The notes beneath the pieces are model-generated. The model was given only the letters and a program-made list of their open reading frames with translations. It ran no database searches and was not told the origin of the DNA. The position numbers were made by a program, and so were the translations under genes. From contig SXXK01000289.1 of assembly GCA_005791255.1 (NCBI GenBank), positions 1-35,553 on the forward strand: 35,553 nucleotides of DNA, read 5' to 3'. Source of the DNA: Planctomyces sp. Lineage in GTDB: Bacteria > Planctomycetota > Planctomycetia > Planctomycetales > Planctomycetaceae. Position 1 is the first letter of the stretch, and each line of letters starts with the position of its first letter. Below, piece by piece: positions 12,319 through 30,861 of the stretch.

Positions 12319-12931
12319 TTGATGCACTCCGGGCGAGGAACAGGGCGATCGTGCCCTGGATTCTTTCAGGCTGAAACCGCCGATGCAAGCCAGCATCCTC
12401 AGCTCAGATGCCCCGAAAAAAGTACGTATTTGAGGCATTTTTTACAGGGAATGCGCTGCTGAACTGTTTTCAGTCACAGCGATGGGTTTTCCTGAGCCCC
12501 TGAACTGGGACTGTCTGTGAAGGCCCGGCAAGGGAACGGCAGCGGGTGCCGTGGTGGCTGAGATTGAGGCTGACGTCCTGGTTTCAGGGCAGGAAACCTG
12601 GGTCCTTAAGGACATACGTCAATGCCGTTCGGGCGATCGGCCGATCAACGAAACAGGCAGATTTTCAGGCCAATCCGGCGATGCTCGCGGATTTTCAGCC
12701 AGTTTTGCCGTGAAATTCGTCTTTGCTGTCTGCTCTGGATTGTGAAAACCCCGTATATTCCCGTCGCAGGACCCGAAGATCTTGCTTTTCATCGGGGTTA
12801 ACTGTTAATTTTTTGTCCTTTGCCGGAGTAAGTTCAGCCCGATCTGACTGTTTCCGGTTCATTCCCGGTGCATGCTGCTGCGATTTTTGGGCTGCAGTCG
12901 CCGACCGATTTTTCTCTGCGGAGCCCGCAAC

Positions 12932-15055
12932 ATGCGTCGTCGCAACATTCAGCGTGCTGGTGGATCGTCCGTACTGGGCACTGCTGCGGATTCTGTTGAA
13001 GTCCGCGTGTTGCTTTCCGCTGAACCCGCGATGTTGATGTCTGACGCAGTTCCGGAAGGCGTGCCCGCCGATGGTTTCCAGCCCTGCGAAGACGTGGACG
13101 CCGACGGTCAGATTCAGCAGCAGTTTGCGGAACCTGAAATTGCCATCGATCCAGCGTCGGCGGACGTGTCGGTGTTTGCAGAGCCTGACGACGGTGCTCT
13201 GGTGACGATCGCCGAATGCGGATTCGTTCCTGAGGGTTACGGAATTCCCTTTGAAATGCCGCAGGTAGTGATTTGCGAACCTTACGATCCACGCTACGTT
13301 CCGGAAGCGCATGAGTGGCAGGTCGGTTCGGTCTCTGAAGAAACAGCAGCAGAACAATCCCAGGGGGCAGAAGCTGACGATTCCCAGGAACCTCTGCTGC
13401 TGGCAGCCAGTTCGGGCCTGGTGGGCACCGCCGGCCGGATGGCTCAGTACATTCAGATGACCAATCCGGTCGCCATGGTTTCGGGCGCGGTGACGGCTGA
13501 GATTGAGCTGGCCGGTTCGCCGCAGTATGACCAGGATGGAAATCTGACGGTCCCGGCCGTTCTTCATGACCGGCTCTCCGGCATTCAGTACTGGCAGCCC
13601 AAACAGGTGACTCTGCAGTCTTCGACTGACCTGACAGAACTGCTGCAGAACTACGGAATCACGGACTACAGTGCTGACGAGCAGGGAGTGTGGCAGATTC
13701 CGGTCAGTCCCGAGTATGGAGTCGAGCTGTTCAATCTGGCGACGGGACTGCTCGCGGACCAGACAGTGCGGGCTGAGTTGTGGCTGCAGCCGGTGGACGG
13801 TCAGGATGCGGCTCCGCTGCTGATTTCTCTGCCGGAATCCCAGATCAGCGTAAGTTATGAATCCAGCTGGACGGACCCGATCTGGCCGACCGGATGGCAG
13901 AATTCGTCCGTGCAGATTCAGGCCAGCGGTGCTTTCAATGGGACCCTGGAGGTATCGGAAGGTCCGCTGTGGGACGACGCGGGTCAGTTGATCTCTGCCG
14001 GTCTGCTGGTGGATGTGGCGACCGGGGTGCGTTATCAGTCTCCACAGACCCTGACGGTTTTTGGCGAGGCGATTGATCAGTTGGATCTGCTGCTGCAGGA
14101 CTCGCAGTGGTCAGCCGGTTTGGACACGAAGATTATCTCGGTGGATGTGCTGGATGCACAGACTCGTCTGCTGCAGATTGCACCGGGAACCGGCTACGAC
14201 GTGCTGCAGTTGGCCGGTCGACTGACGGAGCAGACAGGTTTAAGCTGTGTGGTGCGACTGACAGCGGCGGACGAAGGTGGCGAGGATCTTGAGATCAGTA
14301 CGCCCGGCACTGCGCTGTTCGTGGATTACCCCGTCTACATGTACTCTCGCGGGTCCGTCAGCGTGGGGACTCCGGAGGTTCAGTTCGGCGAAGTGCTGAC
14401 CGCGGTCGCTGACGGTCCGGTGCGTCCGGATGTGTTGCAAAGCTTTGGCGACTCGGTGAAGTTTGCTGGTGGAGTGGACGTGCCGGTGTTTGCCTTCGGC
14501 GGTGGAGTTGTCGGCGAGGACCTGCAGACAATGGCGACGACACGGCGTGATGTTGTGCGTGAAGCGATCAGCCAGATGTGGCTGGCTCGAGCACGCCAGC
14601 CGATGTCGGATCTGGTGCGTGACGTTTCGATGGCGCCCGCAGCGGACGATACACTGTCGCGGGTATCTGCGATTGCGGCGGCCGTGCCGACATCGGTTGG
14701 GCGAGTGTTTTCCGAGTCGGGTGACGATTCAAAGGACACCGAAGCCGCTGCGGTGCTTGAGTTTTCATCACTGAACCTGACAACAGAGATTCATGTGCAG
14801 CCGGCTGAATCCGTGCCAGAACTTGAATTGCTGAATCCAGGACTTCGTCGCCGTCAGCCGCGTCCGGTGCCGCCACAGCCTCAGCAGGAAGAGATTCCGG
14901 TCGACGTGCCGGTTGAGCAACCGGCGGTGCCCGTGGCACCGCAGTCTGAAAATCCTGCAGCCCGGTTTGGGCCCGGTGAGATTCCCGTGTCGCAGTCTGA
15001 CCCGGCGATTGACAGTCTGATGGCAGCATTCGCGGCCGCGGGCGTGACCCACTGA
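12932..15055 (+). CDS. LEPR-XLL-like exported protein with two tandem ~115-aa domains and Pro-rich tail
   Basis: MRRRNIQRAGGSSVLGTAADSVEVRVLLSAEP resembles the planctomycete LExRxLLSA N-terminal motif. The core region appears duplicated. Tail is RRRQPRPVPPQPQQEEIPVDVPVEQPAVPV. Confidence 0.75.
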   Translation: MRRRNIQRAGGSSVLGTAADSVEVRVLLSAEPAMLMSDAVPEGVPADGFQPCEDVDADGQIQQQFAEPEIAIDPASADVSVFAEPDDGALVTIAECGFVPEGYGIPFEMPQVVICEPYDPRYVPEAHEWQVGSVSEETAAEQSQGAEADDSQEPLLLAASSGLVGTAGRMAQYIQMTNPVAMVSGAVTAEIELAGSPQYDQDGNLTVPAVLHDRLSGIQYWQPKQVTLQSSTDLTELLQNYGITDYSADEQGVWQIPVSPEYGVELFNLATGLLADQTVRAELWLQPVDGQDAAPLLISLPESQISVSYESSWTDPIWPTGWQNSSVQIQASGAFNGTLEVSEGPLWDDAGQLISAGLLVDVATGVRYQSPQTLTVFGEAIDQLDLLLQDSQWSAGLDTKIISVDVLDAQTRLLQIAPGTGYDVLQLAGRLTEQTGLSCVVRLTAADEGGEDLEISTPGTALFVDYPVYMYSRGSVSVGTPEVQFGEVLTAVADGPVRPDVLQSFGDSVKFAGGVDVPVFAFGGGVVGEDLQTMATTRRDVVREAISQMWLARARQPMSDLVRDVSMAPAADDTLSRVSAIAAAVPTSVGRVFSESGDDSKDTEAAAVLEFSSLNLTTEIHVQPAESVPELELLNPGLRRRQPRPVPPQPQQEEIPVDVPVEQPAVPVAPQSENPAARFGPGEIPVSQSDPAIDSLMAAFAAAGVTH

Positions 15056-17803: not shown

Positions 17804-19585
17804 ATGAAACGTGCATTGAAGCTGTGTGTGGCCGGGATGTTGTCACTGGTGTCTGTGTCATTGCAGGCGGATGATGAGGCGACGTTCCGCTCGGAGTATC
17901 CGCATCGAATGGAGTTGTCGCGGAGCGGAGCGGCGGAGTTTCCGGCGTTTCCGACTCGTCGACGCGGGGCGACTTCGAATCGTGTGGTTCCGCTGAGTGA
18001 CAGCGACGACGATTTTCGTCGGGAGCCTGTAGTGCGTGAAGAGGGGCTGGACCCCTTCATACCAGCTCCGACCCCGAGGGCGGTGGTGGATGACGAAAGC
18101 GAGCGGATTAAGGTGGTCCTGACCGGGCGATACAGTAATCCGGCGACTGTGCGGGCTGTGCGGGCTCTGTCCGGACGTCAGGCGAGTGAGTTGTTCGCGG
18201 AAGTGTCCAGCAAAATTGACGAGCGATCGCTGGAGCCGACGAGTTACGACGTGCGGGTGCGGCGGGCGCTGCGGAATCTCGGCTTGGCTCTGGATAACGA
18301 AGCCTTCATCAGAGGGTTGCGGATTTCCAGCGACAGTTTTCGAACTGATGCTTTTCGGGAATCGCTGGGCCGGCTGGCCGGTCGCATGACGGTTCGCAAT
18401 CGCAGTGATGCGGTGGCTGTCATGAATTCGGTGATGAAGGAATCAGAGCGAGTATCGGGATTGACGGCCAGCGTAGTGGCGTGGGAGTTTGCTCTGGCCA
18501 GCCTCGACACGCTCGATAAGTTCTCTGGTCTGGACCCCGCGGACCCCGACGTGCGTCGGGGGGCGGAAGCAGATGGCTGGCAGACAGCAGCTTTGGACGA
18601 GGAGATTGTGGGAATTGGTGTGGAGGTTCGTGAGCATGCTGATGGACTGCTGGTGGTAAAGCCGCTGAAGGGCAGTCCGGCCGCCGAAGCGGGCCTGCGA
18701 GCCGGCGATGTGGTGACGGCGATTGACGGCCGCAAGATCGCCGGCTTGAAGATGACGGAAAGCTCTGACCTGATGAAGGGAACCGCCGGCACTCGCATCG
18801 TTCTGGCAGTGACTCGTGAAGACGGCAGTGAGCGGACTTTCACAATTCTGCGTCGAAAGGTGCGGATCTGGACAGTCAACGATGTGCGAATGCTGAACTC
18901 GACAGGCACCGCCTATCTGAGTCTCAGCCGGTTTTCGGCGGGATCGACGGCTGAACTGGATGCGGCACTGGAGTCGCTGTATTCGCGCGGCATGAAGTCG
19001 CTGGTGCTGGACCTGCGTGGCAACCCGGGCGGACTGCTGACGACCTGTGTTGAAATAGCTGACAGATTTCTGCCGGTCGGAACCATCGTCTCAACTCGTG
19101 GCCGACTGCCTGCTGACAACATGGTCGAAAAGGCCACGTTTGCTCGGACCTGGTCCATGCCGCTGGTGGTGCTGATTGACGGCGACAGTGCATCCGCGAG
19201 TGAAATTTTTGCTGCAGCCATTCAGGAGAATCGACGAGGTGTGGTGGTGGGTGTGAAGTCGTATGGCAAGGGGTCTGTGCAGACGCACTTCCCACTCAAT
19301 TCGATTGCCGGTGACCTGCGGATCACGACTGCACTGTTTTATTCCCCGAATGGTCGACGGATGGCGGGAGAAGGAGTGAATCCGGATGTGGAAGTGTCGG
19401 ATCGGGACGGGGTGGCCAACGGAGATCGAATGCTGCTGGAAGCGGAGCGTCTGGCGGGCAGCACAGAACTGCTGTCGATGGCTCGTTCTGCGGCCCGAGT
19501 GCGTCCGGCGGATCCCGCGAAACCTCGCTCCGCCGCACTGGATAGTATCGCGGATCCGGTTGGTGGTCGCACTGCGGTGCACTGA
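17804..19585 (+). CDS. S41-family C-terminal processing peptidase with PDZ domain
   Basis: PDZ-like VVKPLKGSPAAEAGLRAGDVVTAIDGRKIAG; S41 core LVLDLRGNPGGLLTTCVEIADRFLP, VVLIDGDSASASEIFAAAIQENRRGVVVGVKSYGKGSVQT (Ser/Lys retained); signal peptide. Confidence 0.95.
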   Translation: MKRALKLCVAGMLSLVSVSLQADDEATFRSEYPHRMELSRSGAAEFPAFPTRRRGATSNRVVPLSDSDDDFRREPVVREEGLDPFIPAPTPRAVVDDESERIKVVLTGRYSNPATVRAVRALSGRQASELFAEVSSKIDERSLEPTSYDVRVRRALRNLGLALDNEAFIRGLRISSDSFRTDAFRESLGRLAGRMTVRNRSDAVAVMNSVMKESERVSGLTASVVAWEFALASLDTLDKFSGLDPADPDVRRGAEADGWQTAALDEEIVGIGVEVREHADGLLVVKPLKGSPAAEAGLRAGDVVTAIDGRKIAGLKMTESSDLMKGTAGTRIVLAVTREDGSERTFTILRRKVRIWTVNDVRMLNSTGTAYLSLSRFSAGSTAELDAALESLYSRGMKSLVLDLRGNPGGLLTTCVEIADRFLPVGTIVSTRGRLPADNMVEKATFARTWSMPLVVLIDGDSASASEIFAAAIQENRRGVVVGVKSYGKGSVQTHFPLNSIAGDLRITTALFYSPNGRRMAGEGVNPDVEVSDRDGVANGDRMLLEAERLAGSTELLSMARSAARVRPADPAKPRSAALDSIADPVGGRTAVH

Positions 19586-19699
19586 TGCATGGGCTGGCAG
19601 ATTCGGTCGGCGGTCAGCGAACAGGGATTGTTCGCGGCTGACTGAATGGGGTTGATGGAGTGCTCTTTCAGGGAATTGAGTATGAGTGAAGTGAACAAT

Positions 19700-19771
19700 G
19701 CCCGGAGCTTTCTGAGTGTGCTGTGACTGGTCTCGTCGGACCGGTCCCAGCCTGCTCAGAAAGCTCCGGGC
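19700..19771. terminator. Long hairpin (17-bp perfect outer stem), probable bidirectional terminator or structured RNA
   Basis: GCCCGGAGCTTTCTGAG (19700..19716) pairs exactly with CTCAGAAAGCTCCGGGC (19755..19771). Inner stem GACTGGTC-TCGTCG-GACCGGTC (19725..19746). Followed by tttctgc. Confidence 0.65.
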
Positions 19772-19880
19772 TTTCTGCATCCGCTGCCGCAGGGGAATTG
19801 ATTCGAGGAACTGTTGCCGGCGCGGCAGCAGCAGACGGGAACGGCTGGACGGGGACTTACGCAGCGCGGCGTGGCCGGCG

Positions 19881-19976
19881 TCAGAACCACAGCAGCCAGT
19901 GAATCACCTGGCCCAGCACGGTTCGCAGCGACTTGTGCGAAGTAGATCCGCTTTGAGATCGTGAGCGTTCGGACAT
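19881..19976 (-). CDS. Candidate micropeptide A (31 aa), MSERSRSQSGSTSHKSLRTVLGQVIHWLLWF
   Basis: Shares the C-terminal KSLRxVLxxxxHWLLWF and TGA with ORF 20208..20327, with synonymous codon differences (AAG/AAA, TCG/TCT). Confidence 0.4.
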   Translation of the reverse strand: MSERSRSQSGSTSHKSLRTVLGQVIHWLLWF

Positions 19977-20207
19977 GAGCGTTCCGCCAGGATTTCGATT
20001 GCATGAAGAAAAGCTGCGACCAACGACTTCACTGAGATGCAAAACCTGTTCCTCACAGCCGAAATGATCGCAGGAATCGGCGCGACCGGTGAGATCCGTG
20101 CAATCGTCACAACAGTAGCAGCTCAACATGGTCCCTCGACAGGTGTTAATGAAACTGTACAAACTATTTACAGCCTGTTCGCTCGGCTGAACTGCAGTGT
20201 TTCATGC

Positions 20208-20327
20208 TCAGAACCACAGCAGCCAGTGCAACGCGCGAGTCAGAACAGCTCGCAGAGATTTGTCTGAGTTCTGGTTGCGTGACTTGCCGGAGTAACTGCA
20301 TTCGTGGATTCTGGAACGGCTGAACAT
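20208..20327 (-). CDS. Candidate micropeptide B (39 aa), MFSRSRIHECSYSGKSRNQNSDKSLRAVLTRALHWLLWF
   Basis: Paralogous C-terminus to 19881..19976; the final 21 nt (CACTGGCTGCTGTGGTTCTGA) are identical. Confidence 0.4.
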   Translation of the reverse strand: MFSRSRIHECSYSGKSRNQNSDKSLRAVLTRALHWLLWF

Positions 20328-20718
20328 GGCAAGTGGCCCCCGGCTGGTTGTTCGTGTTTGCATTTTCCCTGCAGATCGTGACGAGAAATGGCAGGCTGAT
20401 GACCTTGTCGCAGTGGTTCGCCGGTAAGCAACTGTCGTGCCACACATTCGCGGCTGTGACGCACGGGACGGGGTGTGAGTAGTCATCCGTGCGGGAACAG
20501 CGAGGCCTGGGGGTTTCACTAATCCGCAGGATCGTTGTAACTGGAAAAGTCAAATGGGAGTTTTCCGGATCACTTTTTCCGATCCCTGTCAGGTTCGGCA
20601 CAGTGGAATCTGAGGTCTGCGGGGCCCGGTGTATCACCACGTTAACAGTTTGAAAGTCAACGGGTTCAGAACGCTGAGCGATATTCGTCTGCAACGGAAT
20701 TCCGCTGACGGAATCTGA

Positions 20719-22065
20719 TCAGGGGCGAGGCTTTGCAGCGGTGGAAGATTTTACGGCGGTCTCCCTGATCAGCAGTGGGCGGTGTTTTCCGGTCAGCAGT
20801 CGAGCAGTCAGAGCCTGTTGCAGCAGGTCTTCAAATTGCGTGGCAGCGTTCTGCAGCGCCCGCTGCACGACAGCTCCCATGCCCAGTGCGGACTGCAGTT
20901 GCTGCTGCAGTCCGAGGGCGGCTGACAGTTCGGCGATCTGCTGTACCTGGGGATCGTTCTGCAGTGCTGCGAGATCGCTCGCCTGATTTTCACCGGCGGT
21001 CGCTGTACCCGTGGCTGCCGCAGTGAGGTGCCATTTTTCGTCCGCGGCCTGGTACCACAGGGAACGCCGAACGGCAGCCTCGCCGGAATTCAGATCCGTT
21101 GTGAATTCGGATACCACGACAGTGCGTTTCTGCCGGGCTCGAGCCATGTCTGCGGCGGCCGTCGGCAGAGTTTCCAGGACTCCGGTAATTGAGTCTTTGC
21201 CGGCGTTCAGTCTGACTGGCTGTCCTGATGCTTCATCCAGCAGGTCCTGCAACAGTCCGCGAGTGCTTTGGCCGGCAGCCACCTGCAGCAGTTGAGCGGG
21301 ATCCGGGCGACTGGCCTCGTCGATAAATGCAGTACCTGAACGCACCAGTTTCAGGGCTTCATTTGTGCGTACGTCGATGGCTGCGCGGATGCACCAGGCG
21401 ACCTGCTGCAGTTGTGCTTCGCTCATGTCCGCAGCAGGTTCCGCCATGCCAGGCGCGGCGGCTGCGGACTGCTGCAGCCGGGCTGCCACGGCTTTCCAGT
21501 GCATCTGTTCAAAATCTGTGATGTCGGCTGCCATGGCACGCAGTCCCAGCATTCGCTGTGCATCCGTGCGCAGATCCGCTGTCCGGAAGGATGATCGCAG
21601 CGATTCGACGACCACATGCGTCGGCAGCATGTCTTCATCCGGTTCCAGTCGCTGCAGAACTTCCTGCAGCAGTGTGGTGCGGGCCAGATTTCCAGGCGGA
21701 TCGGATTCTTGTTCACCAACTGGCTGTTTCGCTGCGGCCTCCGTCAGCAGGACCTTCAGCCGCTGTGCATTGGCTTGCAGGGATGTGCGAGCGACCGGGC
21801 GCACGGATCGCTCGAGGAAATCGGGAGCATGCTGTTTGAGCCAGCTGGTGCGTACCAGCAGTTGTGGCGGTTTTCTGGCGACGGCCACACCCTTGAGTCT
21901 GGTGCCATCCTGCAGCAGCATCTGGTCCACAACGGTGTCACGGACTGACCTCACCGGCGGATCATCCGCGATCAGGGGCGACAGGGCCAGTAACCATAAT
22001 GCCGGAGCGAGCAGCCGTGGCCGCTGACTGCAAACGCCGGGTTTATGAACTTCGATTCGGCCCAT
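20719..22065 (-). CDS. Exported protein of unknown function, Ala/Gln/Leu-rich
   Basis: Likely start at 22065: MGRIEVHKPGVCSQRPRLLAPALWLLALSPLIADDPP (signal-like). Long open frame with coding-like composition; no family recognised. Confidence 0.75.
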   Translation of the reverse strand: MGRIEVHKPGVCSQRPRLLAPALWLLALSPLIADDPPVRSVRDTVVDQMLLQDGTRLKGVAVARKPPQLLVRTSWLKQHAPDFLERSVRPVARTSLQANAQRLKVLLTEAAAKQPVGEQESDPPGNLARTTLLQEVLQRLEPDEDMLPTHVVVESLRSSFRTADLRTDAQRMLGLRAMAADITDFEQMHWKAVAARLQQSAAAAPGMAEPAADMSEAQLQQVAWCIRAAIDVRTNEALKLVRSGTAFIDEASRPDPAQLLQVAAGQSTRGLLQDLLDEASGQPVRLNAGKDSITGVLETLPTAAADMARARQKRTVVVSEFTTDLNSGEAAVRRSLWYQAADEKWHLTAAATGTATAGENQASDLAALQNDPQVQQIAELSAALGLQQQLQSALGMGAVVQRALQNAATQFEDLLQQALTARLLTGKHRPLLIRETAVKSSTAAKPRP

Positions 22066-22337
22066 TTCAGAACTCCCGAAATGCCCTGCTGCTGAAGGCA
22101 GCGGCAGGCAAGGTCCGGAGGATACCGTGGCATGTCGATCCGGGGAAGTGGCCGGCAATTCGTCAAAACCGGCAGTTTTTGCCGTTTTGCGAGTCTGAGA
22201 ACACCGCTGTGGGTTCAGGAACCCGGAATTCGCTGCTGGCTGCGCGTCGTTCGCCATGACATAATCCGAAAAGCTCTCAGAGATGAAGCTCTCGTCCTTT
22301 TCCCGTGTCACCTGCGGCGCAAGTAGGAACCTGCAGA

Positions 22338-23345: not shown

Positions 23346-25469
23346 ATGGGGGCCGAGGAAGTCGTCAGTCATCGAATTCCGCGGACCTCCGAGTGGCTGC
23401 TGGCAATCTGTCTGGGTCTGCTGCTGCTGTGCTGGCAATGGACCGGGCTGCTGACCGGTGGTGGGTTGGTTGGTGGCGACACCTACCCGTACTTTTTTCC
23501 GCAAAAGCAACTGCTGTCTGAGGAATTTGCGGCCGGGCGGATTCCGCTGTGGCATGACCGCACCGCACTCGGTTATCCGCTGCTGGCGGAAAGTCAGGGC
23601 GGAATTTTTTATCCGCTGACGCAGGTGCTGTACCGCCTGTTGTCGGTCCACGCGGCCTGGCACGTCAGTCTTCTGCTGCACTACTGGGCCGCTTATGTGG
23701 CTGCATGGAGATATGCTCGCAGTCAGGGTTTGCGGCAGTGGTCAGCGCTGCTGGCGGCACTGGTGTTTGTCTACGGCTGGTTTCCTGCTCGATCATCGCT
23801 GGAGTGGAGCATCATCGGGGGTGTCTGGTTTCCGGTGTGTCTCTGGCAAACCACTCGGCTGCTGGAAAATCCAGGTCTGCGTCGACTGAGCCTGCTGGCT
23901 GCGGCCTTTGCCCTGCATCTGCTGGCCGGCCACTTTGCACTGGCGTTCATCACGCAGCTGACTTGTCTGGCGGTTCCAGTGTGCCATGTGCTGGTGGTGC
24001 CGTCACTGTCGGTGGCGGAGCGTTGGCGGGCAGCTCGCACTGGCCTCGGCTGGTGCAGCGTCGCATTGCTGACCGGCCTGCTGCTGTCCTCTGTCCAGTT
24101 GCTGCCGACGCTGGAGCTGCGGCGGGCCAGTCAGCGCGACGGGATTCGATCGGAGGCTGATCGCACGGTGGCCTTCAATCCTGCGTACGGGCACCTGCCG
24201 CCACTTTATGTGACGCAGCTGGCTGCTTCCTGGTGGTACTGGCATTCGCCTGAAGTGGTGCAATCGCGAGCCATGCTGAGGACGCCGGGTGCCTGCGGCG
24301 CTGATACCAACGCCGTGGAGGCTCATCTGTATCTTGGATTGCTGCCCCTCGGACTTTGTCTGCTGGCTTTGAACCGCCGGATTCGTCGGCAGCTGCCCGG
24401 ATCCGGCTGGAAGATCTGGCTGCTGCTGTCCGCCGCCGCTCTGATTTATGCGACCGGCTGGCTGGTACCGGTGCTGGGGCGTTTGCCGGGATTTGGATTC
24501 TTCATGGGCCCCGGACGTTATTCGATTGTCAGTCAGCTGGGGCTTGCGCTGCTGGCCGGACTGGTGCTGGATGTGATACTGCGGCGTCGCAGCGCGGTGC
24601 TGCGTGTGGGAGTTTCAGCAGCAGTGGCCGGGATCACGATGGTGGACCTGCAGTGGTCTGCACTGGCGGTCAGTGACGCCGTCGTCATTGCAAATCCCCC
24701 GCTGAAATCACTGCCGGACAGCTGGCTGGCTCAGACACTGCAGTCGGAGGATCGCCTGAGTCCAGTACGAGTGTTTGCGCCGGGGGCCAACATAGTGAAT
24801 TTGTGCGGTGTGAGCAGTGTGCCGCAGTATCTGGGACTGGGCCCGGCTGCCTATTTTCGAACAGAATTTCAGGCTGCATTTGCCATGGCCACCGATGCTG
24901 AGGATTACCCAGGTACAGCTCAGGCCGTGCAGCTTGATCGACTCGGTGTGACGCATCTGCTGACGACAGAACCGATCGCTCGACCTGCCGTCGGACTGCA
25001 GCTGCTGCGCTCTGCACCGGATGCCTTTCTGAATCGCGTCTGGGGGCGTGGTGTGGAGCCCTGTTTTCTGTATCGAATCAACGGCAGTGCCGGGCGACTG
25101 CAGTCTGAGCCTGCTGATGCGCTGCAGCAGGTTCGCTGGCTGCAGCGGCAGCCGGCACGGGTCGAATTTCAAGTGACCACGACAGCCGACTGTGTGCTGC
25201 GGCTGGCGGATCTGAGTTTCCCGGGCTGGTCGGTGCAGGTTCTGAATCAGGATGGCGTGTTGTTGAATGCCCCTGAGGCAAAGCCTGTCGAGGAAGACGA
25301 TTATCATCGCAGTGTCACTGTGCCGGCCGGGATTCACCGAGTGATCTGGACGTATGACTCCGGCAGCTTCCGACTGGGGCTGCTGTTGAGTGCAGGGACA
25401 CTGGCTGTACTGCTGGGATTGCTGCTGCGGGAGTCGCGGATGCGGGCGACTGTTAACGATCGCTCCTGA
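23346..25469 (+). CDS. YfhO-family multi-pass membrane protein
   Basis: GGDTYPYFFPQKQLLSEEFAAGRIPLWHDRTALGYPLLAESQGGIFYPLTQVLYRLLS; multiple TM helices; C-terminal FPGWSVQVLNQDG..VPAGIHRVIWTYDSGSFRLG. Confidence 0.85.
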   Translation: MGAEEVVSHRIPRTSEWLLAICLGLLLLCWQWTGLLTGGGLVGGDTYPYFFPQKQLLSEEFAAGRIPLWHDRTALGYPLLAESQGGIFYPLTQVLYRLLSVHAAWHVSLLLHYWAAYVAAWRYARSQGLRQWSALLAALVFVYGWFPARSSLEWSIIGGVWFPVCLWQTTRLLENPGLRRLSLLAAAFALHLLAGHFALAFITQLTCLAVPVCHVLVVPSLSVAERWRAARTGLGWCSVALLTGLLLSSVQLLPTLELRRASQRDGIRSEADRTVAFNPAYGHLPPLYVTQLAASWWYWHSPEVVQSRAMLRTPGACGADTNAVEAHLYLGLLPLGLCLLALNRRIRRQLPGSGWKIWLLLSAAALIYATGWLVPVLGRLPGFGFFMGPGRYSIVSQLGLALLAGLVLDVILRRRSAVLRVGVSAAVAGITMVDLQWSALAVSDAVVIANPPLKSLPDSWLAQTLQSEDRLSPVRVFAPGANIVNLCGVSSVPQYLGLGPAAYFRTEFQAAFAMATDAEDYPGTAQAVQLDRLGVTHLLTTEPIARPAVGLQLLRSAPDAFLNRVWGRGVEPCFLYRINGSAGRLQSEPADALQQVRWLQRQPARVEFQVTTTADCVLRLADLSFPGWSVQVLNQDGVLLNAPEAKPVEEDDYHRSVTVPAGIHRVIWTYDSGSFRLGLLLSAGTLAVLLGLLLRESRMRATVNDRS

Positions 25470-27106: not shown

Positions 27107-27466
27107 GTGAGGATCAGCCACCTTGAAAATTCTGAAGTCCCCCGGCTGTGCAGCGCGGTTTGGCGCGTCACGGCTGTGGTCGCCGTGTGTCTGGGCTGTG
27201 GCGGCTGCCTGAACCCCAATTTTGCTCGTCTGCCGCAGTGTCTGGCTGCTCAGCCCTCCCAGGAAACTCGCGCCTGGGAACACCACTACCCGTTTTCCGA
27301 ACCGGATCTTGGGCCTGCGTCAGAATCTGTTCCGCGGGGATTTGACCGGCCGCGTTCGGGGCCGCGTCGAGCGGCCGAGCAGCGGGTGTTTCAGGGACTG
27401 CCCGCCGGCCCGGAAGCCCAGCCGGCCGGCCCGGAAGCACGCAGCTACAGCCGTTCGGTCAACTGA
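27107..27466 (+). CDS. Small conserved-type lipoprotein
   Basis: GTG start; VWRVTAVVAVCLGCGGCLNPNF lipobox; HYPFSEPDLGPASESVPRGFDRPRSGPRRA; ends with a PAGPEAQPAGPEAR duplication. Confidence 0.6.
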   Translation: MRISHLENSEVPRLCSAVWRVTAVVAVCLGCGGCLNPNFARLPQCLAAQPSQETRAWEHHYPFSEPDLGPASESVPRGFDRPRSGPRRAAEQRVFQGLPAGPEAQPAGPEARSYSRSVN

Positions 27467-27507
27467 AAAAAGTTGACTTATGTGCGGAGGTTGCCCGCCT
27501 GCGGTTT

Positions 27508-27681
27508 TGAACCACGAATGAACACGAATGGACACGAATTCATGTAGCTCGGGCTTTCCAGCCCGAGATTTGTCCTGAAGAGGCTTCGCGAGGGGTGTTT
27601 TTTGAACCACGAATGGACACGAATGGGCACGAATGGGCACGAATGCGGGGTTGTTTTGCGTAGCTCGTGCTTTGGCTCGAG
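27508..27681. repeat. Composite intergenic repeat: (ACGAATGGAC)n tracts plus CTCGGGCT hairpins, two units
   Basis: tgaaccacgaatgaacacgaatggacacgaatt + CTCGGGCTTTCCAGCCCGAG (27548..27567); second unit tgaaccacgaatggacacgaatgggcacgaatgggcacgaatg (27603..27645) + ctcgtgctttggctcgag (27664..27681). Confidence 0.85.
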
Positions 27682-27897
27682 ATCTGCCCGGGCGCGTGCC
27701 GCGGTGCACCCTTCACTGATGCGGGCTGCGGGTTGTGCGTGATTGCTGCCGGGTGCCACCACCGTCTGCACAAATCGGCCGTCACCGTTTTTCCGCGGAC
27801 GCTGTGCTGACATGCCCTGTGCAACGCGGTATACTGGCCTCCCCTCCCCGCGAACGTTCGCCGTTCGCGTCGCCACCGCTGTTTCAGGATTCTGCTC

Positions 27898-30861
27898 ATG
27901 ATCGGTTCGCTGCTCCGAACAGTCATACTGATGTCAGCCGGTGTTTGGTTCATGGCCGGCATGTCCGTCTGCTGCGGGCAGCAGCAGGCGGCCGGTGAGG
28001 AATTCTTTGAACAGCGAATTCGCCCGATTCTGGTGCAGCGTTGCGAAGGCTGTCATTCCCGCACTGCCGGGAAAGCCGGCGGTGGTTTACTGCTGGATCA
28101 CCGCGAGGGCTGGTCAAAGGGCGGCGACAGCGGTACGGCAATCATTCCGGGTCAGCCGGATGCCAGTCTGTTGATTCAGGCGGTGCGCTACGCTGAAGAC
28201 GGCCCACAGATGCCGCCGCAAAGCAAAGGGGGCAAACTTCCGGATGCAGAGATTCGACTGCTGGAGGAATGGGTTCGCACCGGGGCTGTGGATCCGCGTG
28301 TTCCGTCAGCGCAGCTGGGCGGAATGTCTCCCGAGCAGGCTCGGACGTGGTGGGCCTTCCAGCCACTGCCCCTGCTGCATGCGCGGCTGCAGCCGGCCGA
28401 TCTTGATCGCGCCCTGCAGCGTCTTTGGCAGCAACAGGGGCTCAGTCCGGCTCCCCCCGCAGATGCTCGCACCCTGCTTCGCAGACTGCATTATGACCTC
28501 ACCGGGCTGGCTCCGGCCATGCACGATGTTGATGCCTTTGCAGCTGAGCCTTCAGCGGCTGCATGGCAGGCGCAGATCGAGCGACTGCTGCAGTCGCCGC
28601 AATATGGCGTGCACTGGGGCCGGCACTGGCTGGATGTGGTACGGTATGCCGACACCGCCGGTGAAAACACCGACCGTCCGCTGCCGCATGCCTGGCGTTA
28701 TCGCAACTGGGTGATGCAGTCCCTGAATGCAGATCTGCCATTCGATCAGTTTGCTCGGCTGCAACTGGCGGGTGACCTGCTGCCGGAAGGGCCTGGCCAG
28801 TCGAGGGCAGACGGCATTGTGGCCACCGGTTATCTTGCGATTGCCCGTCGATTCGGCCATGACATCGACAAGGACATCCATCTGATGTATGAGGATGTCA
28901 TTGACAATCTGGGCAAGAATTTTCTGGGACTGACGCTGGGGTGTGCTCGTTGCCATGATCACAAGTACGATCCGATCACGGCGGAAGACTATTACGCGTT
29001 GTATGGAGTGTTTGACAGTACGAAGTTTTCTTTTCCGGGGTGCGAGCCGAAGGGGCAGCCGAAAGATCTGGTGCCGCTGGCCGACGCCGCAGTCGTGGCT
29101 CAGGCGCAGCAGGATTACCAGCAGCGTCTGGCGGCGTTTGAGCAGCGGCAGCAGCAGCGGGATGCTGGTCGGCTGGCTGTCAGACAACTGGCTGCAGCCA
29201 GTCATCGAATTCTGGCGGGTGCAGCGGTGGGTGAAGGTCAGACGGTGACTTTGCAGACTGCTGTTCCGCAGGGTCAGCCGGGGGGCCTGGAATCACTGTT
29301 GCTGAAGCGTGGTGAGGTGCTGCAGCTGGCGATTCTGCCGAACGGCAATTACGGTGCTGATACGACTCGAGTGCAGCTGGAGATTCGGCGTACGTCCGGT
29401 TCGCAGCCGGCGACATGGTCCTTGCAGGATCTGATCGACGGCTTCGCGCAGGGGGGGCCGCTGCGTCAGCAGCGGGATGCGGCGTGGTGTTTTCTGGAGG
29501 TTACCGATGGTCCGCAGTTTTTGACGGATGGCAAACCGGCGGTTGAGGGGCGGCAGGAGCTGAGTGCGTGGGCCCGGGGTGACAACCCGGCGGTATTCGT
29601 GAATCAGGCGAACCAGCAGGTCGACGTATGGACTCGCCTGCCTGCCCGGACCGTATTTGTGCACCCCGGTCCTGATCGGCCAGTGGCGATTGCGTGGGTG
29701 TGCCCGGAGGACGGATTGTATCAGGTGCAGGGCCTCGTTGAGGATGCTCATCCGGCCGCGCTGGACGGCGTCAGTTTTCGATTTGAGCATTTTGCGAATC
29801 CGGAAATTGGAACGGCCCTTGTCGCTTTGGGGCAGGCTGTTGCGGTGCCTGCTGAGCCCCGTCCGTCTCCGCCGGTATTCCCCGTGGCTTATGCTGTATT
29901 TGAGTCGTCAGGGAAGAACGCCCGCGTGCATTTGCGGGGTGATCCGGAGCAGCCGGGAGCCGAAGTTCCGCGGCGCTGGCTGACAACATTTGGTGGCGGG
30001 CTGCTGACTGATGCCGCGGGTGGCAGTGGTCGGGTGCAGCTGGCTGAGGCTGTGGTGCGTCAGCCGCTGTTTGCGCGAGTGATCGTCAATCGCGTGTGGC
30101 AGTGGCACTTTGGTCGAGGTCTGGTGGCTTCGGCGAATGACTTCGGTTCCCGTGGTGCAGCGCCTCTGGATGTGCAGTTGCTGGACCTGCTGGCTGCGGA
30201 CTTTGTGGCGGGTGGCTATCGTCTGAAGGATCTGCACCGACTGATACTCAGCACCGACGCGTGGCGGCTGAGTTTGCGGACTGCGGGTGCTGCTGACCTG
30301 CGGGATTCTGAGAATCAGTATCAGGCGCGGTTCAGTCGTCGTCGACTGACGGCGGAGGAGCTGCGTGATGCAGTGCTGGCGGCATCGGGCGGGCTGAATC
30401 CGGATGTGCCTGAGGGGCATCCGTTTCCGCCGGAATCGACGTGGACATTTTCGCAGCATGCTCCGTTTAACGCGGTGTATGACAGTCCGCATCGCAGTGC
30501 CTTTCTGATGGTGCAGCGACAGCGGCGGCATCCGTATCTGGCGTTGTTCGACGGTGCAGACCCGAATTCCAGCACGGCGCAGCGACAGTCCACCACCGTA
30601 CCGACTCAGGCCCTGTACTTTCTGAACGACGCCTTCTTTCATCAGCAGGCCCAGCGGATAGCGGAGCGAGCGGAGTTGTCGGGGGATGATGGTGTGGCGG
30701 TGCAGCAGTTGTACCAGTTGCTGCTGCAGCGGCGACCGGAAGCAGACGAACAGGCGCTCGCGGTGGAATTTCTGGCGGGGTATCCGGGGACGGTGGCGGA
30801 GCGTCGAGCGGCGTGGGTGCGGGTACTGATGTCAGCCAGCGAATTTTCGTTTGTGGACTGA
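27898..30861 (+). CDS. PSD1/PSCyt1 (DUF1549/DUF1553) domain-containing protein
   Basis: CEGCHSRTAGKAGGGLLLDHREGW...MPPQSKGGKLPDAEIRLLEEWVRTGA; LDVVRYADTAGENTDRPLPHAWRYRNWVM; CARCHDHKYDPI; VNRVWQWHFGRGLVASANDFG; TVPTQALYFLND. Confidence 0.96.
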   Translation: MIGSLLRTVILMSAGVWFMAGMSVCCGQQQAAGEEFFEQRIRPILVQRCEGCHSRTAGKAGGGLLLDHREGWSKGGDSGTAIIPGQPDASLLIQAVRYAEDGPQMPPQSKGGKLPDAEIRLLEEWVRTGAVDPRVPSAQLGGMSPEQARTWWAFQPLPLLHARLQPADLDRALQRLWQQQGLSPAPPADARTLLRRLHYDLTGLAPAMHDVDAFAAEPSAAAWQAQIERLLQSPQYGVHWGRHWLDVVRYADTAGENTDRPLPHAWRYRNWVMQSLNADLPFDQFARLQLAGDLLPEGPGQSRADGIVATGYLAIARRFGHDIDKDIHLMYEDVIDNLGKNFLGLTLGCARCHDHKYDPITAEDYYALYGVFDSTKFSFPGCEPKGQPKDLVPLADAAVVAQAQQDYQQRLAAFEQRQQQRDAGRLAVRQLAAASHRILAGAAVGEGQTVTLQTAVPQGQPGGLESLLLKRGEVLQLAILPNGNYGADTTRVQLEIRRTSGSQPATWSLQDLIDGFAQGGPLRQQRDAAWCFLEVTDGPQFLTDGKPAVEGRQELSAWARGDNPAVFVNQANQQVDVWTRLPARTVFVHPGPDRPVAIAWVCPEDGLYQVQGLVEDAHPAALDGVSFRFEHFANPEIGTALVALGQAVAVPAEPRPSPPVFPVAYAVFESSGKNARVHLRGDPEQPGAEVPRRWLTTFGGGLLTDAAGGSGRVQLAEAVVRQPLFARVIVNRVWQWHFGRGLVASANDFGSRGAAPLDVQLLDLLAADFVAGGYRLKDLHRLILSTDAWRLSLRTAGAADLRDSENQYQARFSRRRLTAEELRDAVLAASGGLNPDVPEGHPFPPESTWTFSQHAPFNAVYDSPHRSAFLMVQRQRRHPYLALFDGADPNSSTAQRQSTTVPTQALYFLNDAFFHQQAQRIAERAELSGDDGVAVQQLYQLLLQRRPEADEQALAVEFLAGYPGTVAERRAAWVRVLMSASEFSFVD

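Follow-up and report, generated by a model that had tools for sequence, protein, structure and literature searches.

Two unannotated tandem micropeptide genes with an invariant HWLLWF C-terminus in a single clade of a Planctomycetaceae genus: putative membrane-associated regulators

SpoVM is a small membrane-associated protein of bacteria. Together with YohP it is among the closest described counterparts of the two micropeptides reported here, pep1 and pep2: both proteins have fewer than 50 amino acids, and they share with the micropeptides the very small size, the lack of a catalytic domain and a helix that would contact the membrane. Neither matches pep1 or pep2 in sequence, and we know of no such small membrane-associated protein that combines a basic, Ser/Arg-rich disordered N-terminus with a strict HWLLWF-COOH tail. 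The type I toxins Ldr, Ibs, ZorO and Hok are likewise short, often found in tandem and narrowly distributed, however, pep1 and pep2 differ from them in that their hydrophobic part is too short, no antisense RNA was found and there is no match in Pfam, NCBIfam or Rfam. Proteases with PDZ domains such as Prc and DegS recognise nonpolar or aromatic C-termini. A hydrophobic or aromatic free C-terminus is a trait that the ligands of Prc/Tsp and DegS have in common with the micropeptides, whose genes adjoin that of a Prc-type protease; in contrast to these ligands, pep1 and pep2 have no signal peptide by reading, and relatives possess the protease without the peptides. A sequence-only reading of the locus had named the peptides as its best candidate for something undescribed. 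In line with this, they match no family in the libraries searched: Pfam and NCBIfam gave no match at E values up to 10, bar one chance match in Pfam at 0.2, PDB, PADLOC and PHROGs contained nothing above threshold for the peptides, Rfam has no match at the locus, and the HWLLWF motif was not found in the literature searched.

The DNA analysed here, referred to as the window, is a stretch of 35,553 nucleotides of a Planctomyces genome. It encodes pep1 (31 amino acids, MSERSRSQSGSTSHKSLRTVLGQVIHWLLWF, positions 19881-19976) and its paralogue pep2 (39 amino acids, MFSRSRIHECSYSGKSRNQNSDKSLRAVLTRALHWLLWF, positions 20208-20327), both on the minus strand, each closed by a stop codon and both absent from the annotation. 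The two open reading frames and their translations, as well as the gap between the flanking genes (19586-20718, 1.13 kb) that houses them, are present as the sequence-only reading had described; the frames are neighbours, with an exact spacing of 231 nt instead of the 232 nt given there. The gap is bordered by a gene for an S41 C-terminal-processing peptidase with a PDZ domain (17804-19585, plus strand), which converges on pep1, and by a gene for a 530-amino-acid protein (20719-22311, minus strand), the upstream neighbour on the same strand. The identical tail claimed for the two peptides is borne out by their common HWLLWF end, while the proposed common start M-x-x-R-S-R is not strict, one orthologue beginning with MSSQSR. 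Of all C-terminal hexapeptides encoded by the 752 open frames of the window with 25 or more codons, HWLLWF alone is present twice, and order-2 Markov copies of the window contain on average 0.05 repeated C-terminal hexapeptides. Common DNA of pep1 and pep2 amounts to 56 nt with 77% identity and is limited to the 3' ends. Judged by their sequences, the two genes are paralogues that arose as tandem duplicates. With pep2 as query, pep1 is the sole other match in the host genome, and no further copies were found there. Elsewhere in the window, long open reading frames at 12872-15055 and 23346-25469 (727 and 707 amino acids) are without Pfam match, the latter resembling a multi-span membrane protein by reading, and overlapping frames at 27320-27960 with repeated HSCPFV.IRVHSWFK-like words look like a nucleotide repeat array and not like protein.

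A single-sequence search of 59 relatives revealed pep genes in two metagenome-assembled genomes of the same genus. One of them (G010, LaPlata-b_bin-0686, record CAITYU010000340.1) has both genes in the order and orientation of the host genome (G000), namely a pep1 orthologue (L003:1168-1263, minus strand, MSARSRIQSGSSSRKSLRTVLGQMIHWLLWF and stop) and a pep2 orthologue of 41 amino acids (L003:1498-1623, minus strand, MSSQSRFHEGSHPEKQRNSNSNSARSARSMLTRVLHWLLWF). The other (G007) has one copy of the pep2 type with 39 amino acids (L004:1501-1620, plus strand, MSSRSRFEEGTYSGQYRQTGTGRSFRSIFSRALHWLLWF). Single-sequence E values of the orthologues were 2.5e-9 and 3.9e-9, and with a profile the E values of the relatives' orthologues reach 4e-22. 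Across 170 genomes of the family only the five genes are convincing profile matches (E 2e-14 to 1e-24), no other match lies below E 6e-4, and neither 15 further species of the genus nor 152 additional family genomes were found to contain the genes. In the genomes searched, the family does not span the planctomycetes but occurs in three species that belong to a single genus. The S41 protein tree groups the host with these two relatives (support 98/100), indicating that the family is restricted to a single clade within the genus. In G007, dispersed repeats of the GGGAGGGCGAGGCTCC..GCCGAGCCGAA type and others, which partly match each other, end both the contig with the pep gene (L004:1700-1950) and that with the S41 gene (L083:3600-3991). 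They probably cause an assembly break, and a second pep copy may hence be lost or unassembled in this genome. Downstream of the 530-amino-acid gene or the S41 gene in the remaining members of the genus, no divergent copies were recognised.

Several candidate matches were rejected. A profile match in G444 (a 51-amino-acid frame, E 6e-4 per genome) overlaps a sigma-54-activator-like gene on the opposite strand, has two weak matches elsewhere with 34-36% identity, one of them interrupted by a stop, and lacks a match in the sister genome from the genus of G444. Outside the window, the HWLLWF-stop DNA pattern gave only chance matches in 392 genomes of the phylum. A match to the HWLLWF pattern in G021 overlaps a gene that by reading is DUF1553-like, and its frame lacks the rest of the peptide; another in G317 ends in TGG without a stop. 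W-F/L-L-W-F patterns in G011, G014, G017 and others are not micropeptide-like. All six pattern matches in viral contigs are due to chance, phages gave only matches with E of at least 1 and plasmids none.

The reading frame is retained in all five genes, and several comparisons speak for selection on the encoded peptides. Between the host and G010, the pep1 genes differ at 12 of 96 nt, with a dN/dS of 0.30 in the called frame and of 0.64-1.58 in the five other frames. For pep2 the same comparison gives a dN/dS of about 0.31, with 0.75-1.16 in the other frames, and the pep2 copies of G007 and G010 show a value of 0.24; between the host and G007 synonymous sites of pep2 are saturated and dN is 0.32. 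Conserved residues are in excess over random placement of the same substitutions (P = 0.04, 0.01 and 0.0008, the latter two for pep2), each comparison comprising just 12 to 45 substitutions. This small number, together with the weak Shine-Dalgarno sequences of both genes, is what could be put forward for a non-coding explanation, in which an element conserved as DNA or RNA is open by accident. Such an element is extremely unlikely given that selection is confined to one frame, that synonymous changes are of the AAG/AAA type, that the only indel among pep2 orthologues is an in-frame one of 6 nt, and that no other copies are found in the genome. Conservation of pep1 is moreover delimited by start and stop codon, the identity between host and G010 being 87.5% within the frame, 51% in the 60 nt upstream and 38% in the 60 nt downstream. 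Identity falls off less sharply at pep2, from 69% in the frame to 61% ahead of it; its last 11 codons reach 88%. The ATG starts are supported by in-frame stops a short way upstream, in G010 for pep1 and also in G007. The sequence-only reading had named a lack of copies elsewhere and frame-disrupting indels as findings that would speak against its proposal; relatives carry orthologues, and no copy contains such an indel. Its view that conservation acts on peptides and not on a DNA repeat agrees with the single-frame selection and the drop of pep1 identity outside the frame. We consider it very probable that both genes encode proteins and evolve under purifying selection.

The S41 and pep1 genes, which converge, are separated by a long hairpin (19692-19779; minimum free energy -55 kcal/mol, z = -7.4) with 31 consensus pairs in three species, four with two-sided changes and few breaks. 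There is no clear U-tract; the hairpin probably terminates the transcript of S41 and perhaps that of pep1 too. The position of this hairpin and the lack of a same-strand gene after pep1 before the convergent S41 gene led us to discard a function as leader or attenuator peptide. About 200 nt upstream of pep2, a non-coding block (20508-20560) has 85% identity to G010 over 40 nt, compared to 50-60% around it. Its core, CAGTTACAACGAT..TGC.GATTAGTGAAACCC, is present in a single copy in its own genome, and the block was not seen in G007; it is a candidate promoter or regulatory site. A third coding frame on the plus strand of this block was dismissed, there being no coding signal and stops in most frames. 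No sigma-70-like promoter was found at the locus. The 530-amino-acid gene further upstream is shared by 16 of 18 genomes in the genus with 34-75% identity and exists without the peptides; its product has no Pfam or NCBIfam match and is an uncharacterised protein of the lineage. In G010 an insertion of about 220 nt directly follows this gene (L003:2050-2290) and has CCTTGTCATNACCCACGAA in common with the G007 repeat (L083:3721-3739), which marks it as a dispersed element.

One alternative is that pep1 and pep2 are a type I-like toxin pair, that is, membrane-damaging peptides in tandem that are silenced by an antisense or structured RNA, as in Ibs/Sib, Ldr/Rdl and ZorO/OrzO. This would fit their small size and narrow spread, their duplication in tandem and a composition that is basic and rich in Trp and Leu, and duplicated type I loci have precedent (PMC3919570). 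However, neither an antisense promoter nor a conserved antisense unit was found at the locus, the region 20200-20560 folds no more stably than shuffled sequences (z = 0.36), no Rfam match was found, and the peptides are mostly polar, with a hydrophobic part of 10-12 residues that is not a transmembrane span. We regard a toxin function as unlikely.

In the five genes the N-terminal part changes freely, whereas the C-terminal hexapeptide is frozen: the HWLLWF-stop segment (19881-19901 in pep1 and 20208-20228 in pep2, minus strand) is invariant in all five at the level of the peptide, while the codons for Phe and for the two Leu residues differ by synonymous changes. Directly before it, residues at hydrophobic positions interchange freely (V/M/I, L/F, A/V/M, I/L). 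A need for hydrophobicity alone would permit exchanges in the tail as well, and therefore the pattern suggests that HWLLWF is recognised exactly. Whether the tip is specifically recognised, alone or in combination with membrane contact, appears to us an evenly balanced question on the sequences at hand. AlphaFold2 predicts a helix from residue 17 to 38 and an N-terminus of low confidence (mean pLDDT 68.7, about 78-89 in the C-terminal half and 89 in its last block), in a model built on five sequences with a pTM of 0.29. The net charge of the peptides is +3 to +5, and their last 17 residues have a mean Eisenberg hydrophobicity of 0.06-0.33 and a hydrophobic moment of 0.40-0.55, which is only marginally above that of shuffled tails (P 0.05-0.15).

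We tentatively favour, as a whole, the reading that pep1 and pep2 are membrane-associated regulatory peptides with a specifically read C-terminal tip. Each gene would give rise to a basic cytoplasmic peptide of 31-41 residues. Its N-terminus, rich in Ser and Arg, would be disordered, and its C-terminus would form an amphipathic Trp-rich helix resting on the inner side of the cytoplasmic membrane or dipping into it. HWLLWF-COOH, the six terminal residues and their free carboxylate, would be the functional tip, which the membrane interface and probably also a specific protein partner would hold in place. Such a peptide would act as a small membrane-associated regulator and not as an enzyme. Membrane contact via the Trp/Leu helix, in line with the membrane-active or membrane-anchored peptides suggested by the sequence-only reading, is plausible from the model. 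Counted against the favoured reading as a whole are the weak Shine-Dalgarno sequences and the lack of a detectable sigma-70-like promoter, a hydrophobic segment that falls short of standard transmembrane length, the marginal moment, the low pTM and the fact that all comparative support comes from five genes in three genomes. Provided that the genes are indeed coding, action at the membrane has in our view about an even chance. An invariant short C-terminus behind a variable N-terminal part would also be in line with the precursor of a secreted or processed signal or antimicrobial peptide whose C-terminal part is the mature product, and the peptides are cationic and Trp-rich. Yet, by reading, neither pep1 nor pep2 has a Sec signal and no transporter or maturation gene was found among the named neighbours, making a processed peptide quite improbable.

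Another alternative role for the tail concerns the neighbouring protease. It matches Peptidase_S41 (3.8e-49) and PDZ_2 (5.8e-14) in Pfam and TIGR00225 (prc) above the cut-off in NCBIfam, and HWLLWF-COOH might bind its PDZ domain, the peptides being substrate, activator or inhibitor. The invariant free C-terminus would suit such binding, as would the proximity of a Prc-type protease with PDZ domain, in a synteny that is found in two species and that the repeat-ended contigs of G007 permit there too. However, the genes are convergent and not co-transcribed, the S41 gene also occurs in other species of the genus that lack the peptides, and by reading a signal peptide is apparent in the protease (MKRALKLCVAGMLSLVSVSLQA) but in neither micropeptide, which would place the partners in different compartments. 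Binding to this PDZ domain is thus very improbable, and the prospect is slimmer still for a young family whose tail is a specific recognition signal, for instance for this domain, with the peptides as dedicated regulators of a housekeeping protease that is encoded tail to tail with them.

On sequence grounds, pep1 and pep2 represent a new, narrowly distributed and clade-restricted micropeptide family. Genes this short usually escape annotation, and here two of them were found from raw sequence and are backed by comparison with relatives. They come from a phylum whose cell biology is unusual. The variable N-terminus set against the frozen C-terminal hexapeptide provides a clear and testable handle, and the narrow spread makes the family a candidate for a small gene that was born and duplicated recently.
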